From an uncultured Alphaproteobacteria bacterium (GTDB lineage: Bacteria; Pseudomonadota; Alphaproteobacteria; Caulobacterales; Hyphomonadaceae), in contig CAIKWZ010000042.1 of assembly GCA_903831255.1 (NCBI GenBank), positions 1 through 64,000 of the forward strand: a stretch of DNA of 64,000 bases, given 5' to 3'. Both the position numbers and the translations under genes were made by a program. Below are positions 12,641 through 15,990 of the stretch, piece by piece. Positions within the stretch are counted from its first letter, which is position 1; the number at the start of each line of letters is the position of its first letter. The notes beneath the pieces were generated by a model. The model made no database searches and was not told the origin of the DNA. It saw only the letters and a list, made by a program, of their open reading frames with translations.

Positions 12641-13843
12641 ATGATCCGTATGGCTTCGCTCGATCAGGCTCAGACCCTGGCGATCGAACACGCGGCGTTG
12701 CGCAGGACCGCTGTAGAGACGATTCCCCTCGCGATGGCCGACGGACGACGCCTCGCCGATCCCGTTCGGGCGTCGCTCTTCCAGCCTCCGGCGTCCGTCT
12801 CCGCAATGGACGGCTACGCGGTCCGCTTTCAGGACATGCAGCTGGGAGCCCGATTGCACGTGATAGGGGAATCGAGAGCGGGAGCGCCCTATGAGGGGTC
12901 GATCAGCTCCGGACAGGCTGTCAGAATTTTCACAGGGGCCTGGACGCCCGAAGGCGCCGATCACATCCTTATACAGGAGGACGCCCATCGGGAGGGCGAT
13001 GTTCTGACCGTCGCCAGCCCCCAGGGATCTCCAGGGTCCATCCGTCGTCGCGGACGGGACTTCAGCGACGGAGACGAGCTCATTCCCGCAGGCTTCTTGA
13101 TGACGCCGGGCGCGATAGCCCTCGCGGCGGCAGGAAACGCCGCTGTCCTCAGAGCGCACGCCAGACCTGTCATCGCCGTACTCTCCACCGGAGATGAACT
13201 TGTGCCGGTCGGCCGGACCCCATTGCGAGGACAGATCATAAACTCCATCGCGCCGGCTCTGTGCGCGCTCATCGAACGCTGGGGAGGTCGCGCTTTGGAA
13301 CTGGAAACCGCGCGCGATGAAGACGGCGACGTACGCCAGCGCCTGAAAACGCCGTGCGATCTTGTAGTGTCGATCGGCGGCGCTTCTGTTGGAGATTATG
13401 ACATCGTAAGGCCTGCCTTCGCCGCCGAGGGATTCTCGCCGATCTTTGAAAAAGTCGCCGTGAAACCCGGAAAGCCGACCTGGTTCTCGGCACGAGAGGA
13501 TCGGCTCGCCCTCGGACTGCCGGGCAATCCCGCCGCCGCCATGGTGACCGCCCAGTTATTCCTTCGGCCGGTGATCGTGGCGATGACAGGCGGCCCTGAC
13601 CCACGCCCCCCCGTCGCTCACGCCATCCTCTCAGGCGACCTGCCATCAGCAGGCGGTCGAGAAGAACTGCTTCGGGCGGTGATGTCCTCAGACGCGGACG
13701 GAAGACTTCATGTCCGCCCGGCGGACGATCAGGATAGTTCCTTGCTCAATCCCTTCCTCGTTGCGGACGCCCTCATTCGTCGACACCCCGGCCAGAAGGC
13801 CGCCAAAGACGGCGATCGCGTCGAGATCATAAGACTACTCTGA
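12641..13843 (+). CDS. moeA: molybdopterin molybdotransferase MoeA
   Basis: 400 residues, standard for MoeA. Visible signatures: SAMDGYAV near residue 48, the GGASVGDYDIV loop of the MoCF/MogA-like domain, KVAVKPGKPTWF and GLPGNPAAAM. The enzyme inserts molybdate into adenylated molybdopterin, the last common step of Moco synthesis. GAGAGGA is correctly spaced before the ATG at 12641; a second ATG at 12650 is possible. It is divergent from moaC. Confidence 0.95.
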   Translation: MIRMASLDQAQTLAIEHAALRRTAVETIPLAMADGRRLADPVRASLFQPPASVSAMDGYAVRFQDMQLGARLHVIGESRAGAPYEGSISSGQAVRIFTGAWTPEGADHILIQEDAHREGDVLTVASPQGSPGSIRRRGRDFSDGDELIPAGFLMTPGAIALAAAGNAAVLRAHARPVIAVLSTGDELVPVGRTPLRGQIINSIAPALCALIERWGGRALELETARDEDGDVRQRLKTPCDLVVSIGGASVGDYDIVRPAFAAEGFSPIFEKVAVKPGKPTWFSAREDRLALGLPGNPAAAMVTAQLFLRPVIVAMTGGPDPRPPVAHAILSGDLPSAGGREELLRAVMSSDADGRLHVRPADDQDSSLLNPFLVADALIRRHPGQKAAKDGDRVEIIRLL

Positions 13844-14250: not shown

Positions 14251-15369
14251 TCATGAGGAAATGACCTCAGAGCCCGGAGCCCCTGATGGTTCGGCACGCG
14301 CCTCCTCCTGGGACGTCTTCCCGGCTGCGGCGGTTTCAGCCCAGATCTCGAGAGCCCGCATCATGGCTACCAGCCAGCTGATCACGTCGAGAAAGAGCGC
14401 GCTCGACCAGACGAAGATGATCACGATCAGGAGACTGGAAAGAATGATCGCCGTCATCGCCGTCAGACGGGATTTAAGCCACTTGCCGGTCCAGAAACCC
14501 TCAGCCTTTCGCTCTTCAAGCAGAGTATCGACCTCGGCTTTCCTGTCAGCCAGGATCTGTTCAGCCTGCTCACGAGCGCCCTCGACCGAAACCGCTTCCG
14601 CCTCTGCGAGCTGAGCCGCGTCCTCCGCGGAGAAGCTCGTCCGCGCAAGGTCGATATAGCGCCCCAGCACCCGACCATAGTCCTCGCAGTCCGAGAGCTC
14701 GAACCCGGTAAACTCAGGCCCGGGACAAAGAGAGAGCTCTCCTTCAACGGTGTCTGCGATCGCATTGACCTCTTCAAGGCTGACGACTTCCTGCAGTTTC
14801 TGGATGATCCCGCCGCTGTAGGCGGCGTTATCCGAAAACGTCTTGAGGGCGGCGCTGGCTGCATCGCTCTTGCGTCGAGCCTCTTCAGAGGCCTTGCGGG
14901 CCCGCTCCTGAAAGTCAGGCGCGGCCGTCTCAGCAACCTTGGCTTCAGCCTCAGTGATGGCGGTCTGAGCCGCCTTTATCTGTTCGCCTCGTTCCGCCTC
15001 CCTTTCGAGTTCTGATTTCGGATAAAGCGACATCGCTGCCGCCGAGGCCCCTGCAGCGACGATCAGGAGACAAACGACAAGAACAAGAAAGTAGTAAATG
15101 TCGCTGATCTTCTTGAGAGTGAAGACACGCGAACCTGCAAGTCGCGCATCATCCGCCTCAGCGCCCAGAATCACGTTCACGGCCCGCCGAAGAAAAATGA
15201 AAGGCGTCGTGAAGATGGCGGAGAAAACCCGCCAGAGGGCGCGCAGGACCTCAACAACCCTCCCCTGGCTCAGAAGCGCTACGAAAAGCCCCGCTGAGAC
15301 AAGGAACATGACGCCGGTCAACCACAGGTTTTCCTGCGCCAGTTCGAAGATATCCGTCACCATATCCAT
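14251..15369 (-). CDS. membrane protein with central coiled coil, unknown function
   Basis: 372 residues, not recognised. Hydrophobic segments: about 16-34 (LTGVMFLVSAGLFVALL), 48-62, 90-115 (IYYFLVLVVCLLIVAAGASAAAM), and a C-terminal pair around 300-340 (MTAIILSSLLIVIIFVWSSALFL). Between them lies a long Ala/Glu-rich helical stretch (about 120-290) that should form a coiled coil, with a small Cys pair (LCPGPEF...LSDCEDY). The layout suggests a periplasmic or cytoplasmic coiled-coil between membrane anchors. It is transcribed alone, convergent with dodecin. The start begins MDMVTDIFELAQENLWL. Confidence 0.7.
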   Translation of the reverse strand: MDMVTDIFELAQENLWLTGVMFLVSAGLFVALLSQGRVVEVLRALWRVFSAIFTTPFIFLRRAVNVILGAEADDARLAGSRVFTLKKISDIYYFLVLVVCLLIVAAGASAAAMSLYPKSELEREAERGEQIKAAQTAITEAEAKVAETAAPDFQERARKASEEARRKSDAASAALKTFSDNAAYSGGIIQKLQEVVSLEEVNAIADTVEGELSLCPGPEFTGFELSDCEDYGRVLGRYIDLARTSFSAEDAAQLAEAEAVSVEGAREQAEQILADRKAEVDTLLEERKAEGFWTGKWLKSRLTAMTAIILSSLLIVIIFVWSSALFLDVISWLVAMMRALEIWAETAAAGKTSQEEARAEPSGAPGSEVISS

Positions 15370-15668: not shown

Positions 15669-15990
15669 TGGTGCGGGCGGCCGGAATCGAACCGGCACGG
15701 GTCGCCCCTACGGATTTTCGTACCACTTCGACTTTCGTCGCCCCTGTCGCCGGTTATAGGGCCCGGCGGCCGGTTCGTGGTCTGGACTATCCCTTCGCCG
15801 TAGTCGTGTCCGACCTTAGGCGCTGCCCGTCTAGTCTCTACACCTTCCCCTCGGCTCAGGAGCGAAGGGCTTGGCTCGGGATCGCCATCTGACAGGGTTC
15901 CCCGAATTTGAGCAGTTCTGCACCGGATGTTTCCAGCCGGGCACTCAAGTCGTTCAAGTCCGTTGCGTCTACCAGTTTCGCCACGCCCGC
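15669..15990 (-). tRNA. tRNA-Leu(UAA) interrupted by a group I intron
   Basis: On the minus strand the 5' exon (15990-15956) reads GCGGGCGTGGCGAAACTGG..., ending ...CGGACTT; the 3' exon (15718-15669) reads AAAATCCGTAGGGG... and ends CGCCCGCACCA. Joined, they give an 85-base class II tRNA. The 7-bp acceptor stem pairs GCGGGCG with CGCCCGC. The anticodon arm is ACGGA-CTTAAAA-TCCGT with anticodon TAA; the variable arm is long, the T-arm is GCCGGTTCGATTCCGGC, and CCA is encoded. The 237-base insert falls exactly after U34. The tRNA can only be functional if the insert is spliced. Confidence 0.92.
15719..15955 (-). ncRNA. group I intron (IC3-like) in the tRNA-Leu(UAA) anticodon loop
   Basis: 237 bases between U34 and A35. 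The insert ends in G as group I introns do. P1 forms between exon ACUU and intron GAGU, with the conserved U-G wobble at the splice site. Core blocks read on the minus strand resemble the cyanobacterial tRNA-Leu intron as I remember it: ATCCCGAGCCAAGCC, GGAAGGTGTAGAGACTAGACGG, GCCTAAGGTC, then GGGATAGTCCAGACC. P7 is visible as GACTA near 15835 pairing with TAGTC near 15790. There is no open frame for a homing endonuclease, so it is a minimal ribozyme. Confidence 0.88.

Follow-up and report, generated by a model that had tools for sequence, protein, structure and literature searches.

A group I intron in the tRNA-Leu(UAA) gene of an alphaproteobacterium and the patchy distribution of its relatives

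The stretch of 64,000 nucleotides analyzed here (the window) carries on its minus strand, at 15669-15990, a tRNA-Leu(UAA) gene with an encoded CCA end that is interrupted by 237 nt after U34. From its sequence, the insert is very probably a working, self-splicing group I intron of an IC3-like kind, and we consider it likely that it belongs to a proteobacterial lineage of Leu(UAA) introns that moved repeatedly between bacterial lineages. A single intron of this sort is ordinary; the survey around it shows that tRNA-Leu(UAA) introns are widespread yet patchy in Proteobacteria, with further matches on plasmids and phage contigs.

The interrupted gene and its intron

Based on the sequence and on ARAGORN runs allowing introns, the gene comprises a 5' exon of 35 nt ending in U34 (15956..15990, minus strand), an intron of 237 nt ending in G (15719..15955, minus strand; also matched by Rfam RF00028) and a 3' exon that extends from A35 through the encoded CCA (15669..15718, minus strand). 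A complete tRNA-Leu(UAA) of 85 bases was called by ARAGORN on the joined exons, or with introns allowed. The coordinates of the preliminary description, which had a complete tRNA-Leu(UAA) split by 237 bases directly after U34, proved exact, as did its statement that the intron contains no homing endonuclease gene, since the insert is only 237 nt long. The insertion point is what we take to be the position of the cyanobacterial tRNA-Leu(UAA) intron.

Default searches passed over this gene. Without introns allowed, ARAGORN reported no tRNA at 15669-15990, its sole call in the window being a tRNA-Arg elsewhere, and an Rfam scan at curated cut-offs returned nothing at the intron site, giving only a 16S fragment and a tRNA-Arg in the window. 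The group I covariance search proposed beforehand nevertheless gave a full-length match to Intron_gpI (RF00028; model positions 1-253 of 253, E 1e-9), though its 42.8 bits lie below the gathering score of 50, which is why the default Rfam scan misses the intron. This constitutes an annotation trap: because default tRNA and Rfam scans missed the gene, such genomes can be annotated without a tRNA-Leu(UAA). A passage of the tRNAscan-SE 2.0 paper (PMC8450103) reports 36 genomes in which group I introns had concealed tRNA genes for fMet or Ile2.

The hallmarks noted at the outset, namely P1 with a U.G at the splice site, the P7 pairing GACUA/UAGUC and the terminal G, are all present in the window sequence. 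The internal guide GAGU (15943..15946, minus strand) pairs with exon ACUU to form P1, and the two P7 strands lie at 15832..15836 (GACUA, 5' strand) and 15785..15789 (UAGUC, 3' strand), both on the minus strand. Helices P1, P2, P3, P4, P5, P6, P6a, P7, P8, P9 and P9.2 could be drawn on the window intron. We drew them by hand on the window row, guided by the Azoarcus intron, and scored them on an alignment of 64 tRNA-Leu(UAA) introns, left from 69 after removals for N, length or duplicates. Standard pairs filled 97.6% of the 3008 cells, compared with 27-43% when partners were slid by 1 to 3 columns as a control. Cells changed on both sides numbered 221, a count that none of 500 shuffles reached (shuffled mean 62.7), and two-sided change was seen in 23 of 47 pairs, against a shuffled mean of 11.7. 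The U.G was found in 64 of 64 introns; our splice scan demanded the splice-site U and the terminal G and left the pairing G free. P7, invariant on both strands in all 64 rows, and four of the six P4 pairs never vary in this set. For P7, the lack of covariation is in part a product of row selection, as the core block required of each row contains the P7 5' strand; five plasmid copies outside the set carry a compensated P7, GACTG with CAGTC. The core block is common to the window intron and the Azoarcus IC3 intron.

In the proposed mechanism, the pre-tRNA would be transcribed with the intron in place, and pairing of guide GAGU with exon ACUU would present the U.G of P1 at the 5' splice site. In the next step, a guanosine seated in P7 would cleave after U34, and the freed 5' exon would attack after the terminal G, joining U34 to A35. 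From this anatomy, which is plain in the DNA, we infer splicing to a normal tRNA-Leu(UAA) and its charging.

The content of the genome bears on this prediction. The assembly (3,321,201 bases in 76 contigs, completeness 99.99%) contains 40 other tRNA matches, all of which decode; the other Leu tRNAs among them are UAG, CAA, CAG and GAG. A second tRNA-Leu(UAA) was found neither among these 40 nor with a strict pattern for the uninterrupted gene, which had 0 matches in the assembly. The earlier concern that the gene might be a dead spare copy is not borne out in this assembly, and UUA appears to be read in this genome by the interrupted gene alone; therefore, the intron should splice. That it is instead a degenerate, non-splicing intron in a dead tRNA gene is barely credible: splicing is deduced from sequence and the Rfam score is under its cut-off, but no other Leu(UAA) gene was found, exons and core are intact, and the intron of a congener (G014) is 98% identical, as against about 82-87% identity in the aligned surroundings.

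Distribution and history of Leu(UAA) introns

Within the genus, the intron is present in two of 15 genomes (G000 and G014), and the other 13 match the pattern of an uninterrupted tRNA-Leu(UAA). ARAGORN called a complete uninterrupted gene in 12 of the 13 intronless congener loci, with that of G007 at another place. The window encodes a moeA-like gene (12641..13843, plus strand; Pfam MoeA_N, MoCF_biosynth and MoeA_C), and since a moeA homologue adjoins the uninterrupted tRNA-Leu(UAA) in 12 of 13 congener loci (tblastn), as well as in one more genome of the family, intron-bearing and intronless genes appear to occupy the same locus. The gene that flanks the tRNA on its opposite side has a homologue in two of these moeA-bearing loci. 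Between the moeA-like gene and the tRNA, both intron-bearing genomes share a 372-aa open reading frame (14251-15369 in the window) that had no Pfam or NCBIfam match. We prefer gain of the intron in these two genomes over its loss in the 13 congeners, a direction that we infer.

The exons offer a further clue. Those of the window share 91.8% identity with an intron-bearing gene of Caulobacter and no more than 85.9% with the 12 intronless congeners, which is suggestive of transfer of the intron together with its exons. It is only suggestive because mean identity favors the intronless congeners (81.5% to these 12 versus 77.9% to 67 other intron-bearing genes). In G052 (L032:1415-1936), an intronless, truncated tRNA-Leu(UAA) is accompanied by a complete one with an intron, the two starts lying about 190 bp apart.

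On a broader scale, RF00028 matched five of 61 genomes under stricter filters, the window's own genome included, and all five matches lie in tRNA-Leu(UAA). Across the class, a Leu-intron pattern matched 19 of 385 genomes; six of these hits were uninterrupted genes, leaving 13 genomes in 13 families (own genome included), a count from a strict pattern that the true share may exceed. The core block occurs in 11 of these 13 loci, and ARAGORN called five as interrupted Leu(UAA), misnamed seven and gave no call for one. We also scanned GTDB genomes with a 19-base core block, obtaining at least 119 stretches that, with the window and four relatives, make 125 elements, a sample that covers introns with that block only. 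Among the elements listed, 69 are in tRNA-Leu(UAA) at 34/35, 12 in Arg(CCU), 18 in CAU tRNAs at two positions and 12 in others, and 14 received no host call. Taxonomically, the 69 Leu(UAA) elements comprise 47 from named Alphaproteobacteria, five from Betaproteobacteria, one from a gammaproteobacterium, four from Acidobacteriota and one from a Bacteroidota MAG, the remaining 11 being without a class, including five from the window's own search. The 47 alphaproteobacterial elements listed fall into Caulobacterales (11), Hyphomicrobiales (11), Rhodobacterales (10), Sphingomonadales (7), Parvularculales (2) and Acetobacterales (1), with five unplaced. The preliminary reading of Leu(UAA) introns as foreign to Alphaproteobacteria is not supported, given these 47 of 69 listed elements and the 13 of 385 class genomes that match the pattern. 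An alphaproteobacterial host fits the nearest named introns and exons.

Host tRNAs were assigned with our own splice scan, as ARAGORN with introns misnames a share; ARAGORN was run on one strand. For the 138 calls of Leu at 34/35 made by the scan (69 bacterial, 69 viral), ARAGORN agreed on Leu(UAA) in 129 and differed in nine; conversely, six of 135 ARAGORN Leu(UAA) calls were given another anticodon by the scan. The scan left 14 of the 125 bacterial elements and 29 of the 120 viral ones listed without a host call, and the minor hosts that it names, meaning those of single elements and CAU at 33/34, are uncertain. Separately, a Parvularculaceae MAG (G070, the genome of L066) has six Intron_gpI matches, of which five crowd into a stretch of about 4 kb on a single contig.

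We then placed the intron in a tree of 145 introns over 208 columns, in which the bootstrap was unsettled and 64 of 141 inner branches stayed open. Six rows with introns >290 nt (two of them bacterial Leu), eight long-branch rows and near-duplicate viral rows were left out. The window intron pairs with that of G014 (100/89), the next to join being Sphingomonas sp. Y57 (94/91, marginally short of the starred level), inside a mostly proteobacterial clade of 87 rows (99/97) that holds 65 of 67 bacterial Leu introns, 10 of 12 Arg(CCU) introns, both plasmid introns and three viral rows. The ten Arg(CCU) introns form one clade (99/100) drawn among the Leu introns. The remaining two of the 67, which come from Betaproteobacteria, cluster with CAU introns instead; a single origin of the Leu insertion in bacteria is therefore unlikely, and it probably arose more than once. 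The Anabaena reference sequence used here, the sole cyanobacterial row, falls outside the 87-row clade, among phage rows and on a long branch. As a side observation, the intron of a plasmid carrying aac(3)-II (L338:3001-3299) groups with alphaproteobacterial introns with weak support (94/49).

A topology uniting the five introns from the order of the window, as delimited by the RF00028 genome search, was rejected (p-AU 0.006). That these order-mates do not form one clade suggests repeated horizontal arrival, and the case for transfer, as read from the sequences, leans mainly on this one test. Because the intron has no endonuclease of its own, we propose as its probable route the transfer and recombination of either the complete tRNA gene or the intron plus adjacent exon sequence.

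The strongest competing account is vertical descent, with an ancestral alphaproteobacterial intron retained here and lost in most relatives. This would accommodate its presence in several alphaproteobacterial orders and the locus shared with intronless genes. We nonetheless regard it as unlikely, given the rejection of a single clade for the five order-mates, the occurrence of the strict pattern in just 13 of 385 genomes, each in a different family, and the existence of carriers. Movement of a proteobacterial Leu(UAA) lineage between bacteria stays our favored history. Far less probable is an independent insertion into tRNA-Leu(UAA), for instance from a tRNA-Arg(CCU) intron. The ten Arg(CCU) introns do share the 87-row clade, and holding the 65 bacterial Leu and two plasmid introns apart from Arg and the rest was not rejected (p-AU 0.183), so that either Arg or Leu could be the source of the other; the two betaproteobacterial Leu(UAA) introns among CAU introns also speak for such events. 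Against this, it is Leu introns that lie closest to the window intron in the tree, and the clade of ten Arg introns is drawn among Leu introns. That the intron passed straight from cyanobacteria or plastids to this lineage is highly improbable: tRNA and 34/35 position are identical to those of the cyanobacterial intron, but the window intron lies in the 87-row clade with Anabaena outside it (one long-branched reference), and its P7 is unlike that of the Anabaena reference sequence. In place of the choice originally offered between cyanobacterial or plastid transfer and independent insertion, an established proteobacterial Leu(UAA) lineage moving between bacteria is the better account. In the phylogeny, the window intron groups with proteobacterial Leu and Arg(CCU) introns, and the cyanobacterial side consists of a single long-branched row.

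Plasmid and phage carriers

Searching 72,556 plasmid records with the window pre-tRNA (blastn), we found matches in 1284; they extend over at least 80% of the query in 1243, and nearly all have 60-80% identity. Of the matching records, 925 are typed conjugative. In five of six plasmids that we opened, from Enterobacterales, Aeromonas and Acinetobacter, the match has a predicted aac(3)-II gene as its neighbor and no listed gene overlaps it; the weakly supported grouping of the intron noted above hints at an alphaproteobacterial source for this segment. The sixth is a Bradyrhizobium conjugative plasmid with the match near trbI.

In IMG/VR contigs, 69 of at least 120 elements are in tRNA-Leu(UAA) at 34/35, in 24 sequence clusters, and 8 of 10 nearby proteins from nine of these contigs matched PHROGs families. 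The first member of the largest cluster, which numbers 29 (L170:7297-7576), is some 0.4 kb away from a gene for a tail fibre protein (PHROGs). A cyanobacterial core pattern had 0 matches in the viral contigs. Pelagibacter phage HTVC120P was set aside as a phage tRNA intron, its match sitting between two pieces annotated as capsid protein. In a sequence that is probably the isolated Gordonia phage Daredevil (L214:3213-3522; NC_048021.1, near 41.9 kb), we observed an unannotated tRNA-Lys(UUU)-like element interrupted after position 34, about 0.7 kb from an integrase gene. A passage of a 2014 review states that the phage introns observed until then were all in protein-coding genes (PMC3984707), and we found no report of phage tRNA-Leu introns in the open-access literature searched.

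Together, these matches make plasmids and phage contigs possible carriers of intron-bearing tRNA-Leu(UAA) genes. By extension, we tentatively propose an endonuclease-free mobile pool, in which intron-bearing tRNA genes on phages or conjugative plasmids might replace the resident gene, and in which the Leu lineage might have been acquired many times and have seeded other tRNA introns, including those of alphaproteobacterial Arg(CCU); we hold this as a conjecture less likely than its alternatives taken together. With such elements in hand, the spread of endonuclease-free tRNA introns becomes directly testable.

Comparison with known tRNA introns

The cyanobacterial tRNA-Leu intron resembles that of the window in its tRNA, its site after U34, its core helices and its lack of an endonuclease. 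It differs in P7, which is GACUC/GAGUC in the Anabaena reference sequence and GACUA/UAGUC in the window, and in its part of the tree. The initial impression of a core close to the cyanobacterial one gives way to a core like that of Azoarcus, with P7 GACUA/UAGUC.

The CAU-anticodon intron of Azoarcus and other Betaproteobacteria resides in tRNA-Ile. Its core block, AGGTGTAGAGACTAGACGG, is common to the window intron, but it is inserted at 36/37 (nine of the 125 listed elements) instead of 34/35, and the CAU introns fall in a 19-row set (99/90) that excludes the window intron and includes the two betaproteobacterial Leu introns. The tRNA-Arg(CCU) intron of Alphaproteobacteria, the Agrobacterium type, likewise has the same core block as the window intron, and 10 of 12 share its 87-row clade; tRNA and site (36/37) differ from the Leu 34/35 of the window. 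A precedent in kind is reportedly that of Vepritskiy et al., who in 2002 are said to have described a tRNA-Leu(UAA) intron in a deep-subsurface gammaproteobacterium, the same tRNA and likewise in a proteobacterium. Proteobacterial Leu(UAA) introns are already known as a kind, to which the element in the window adds one.
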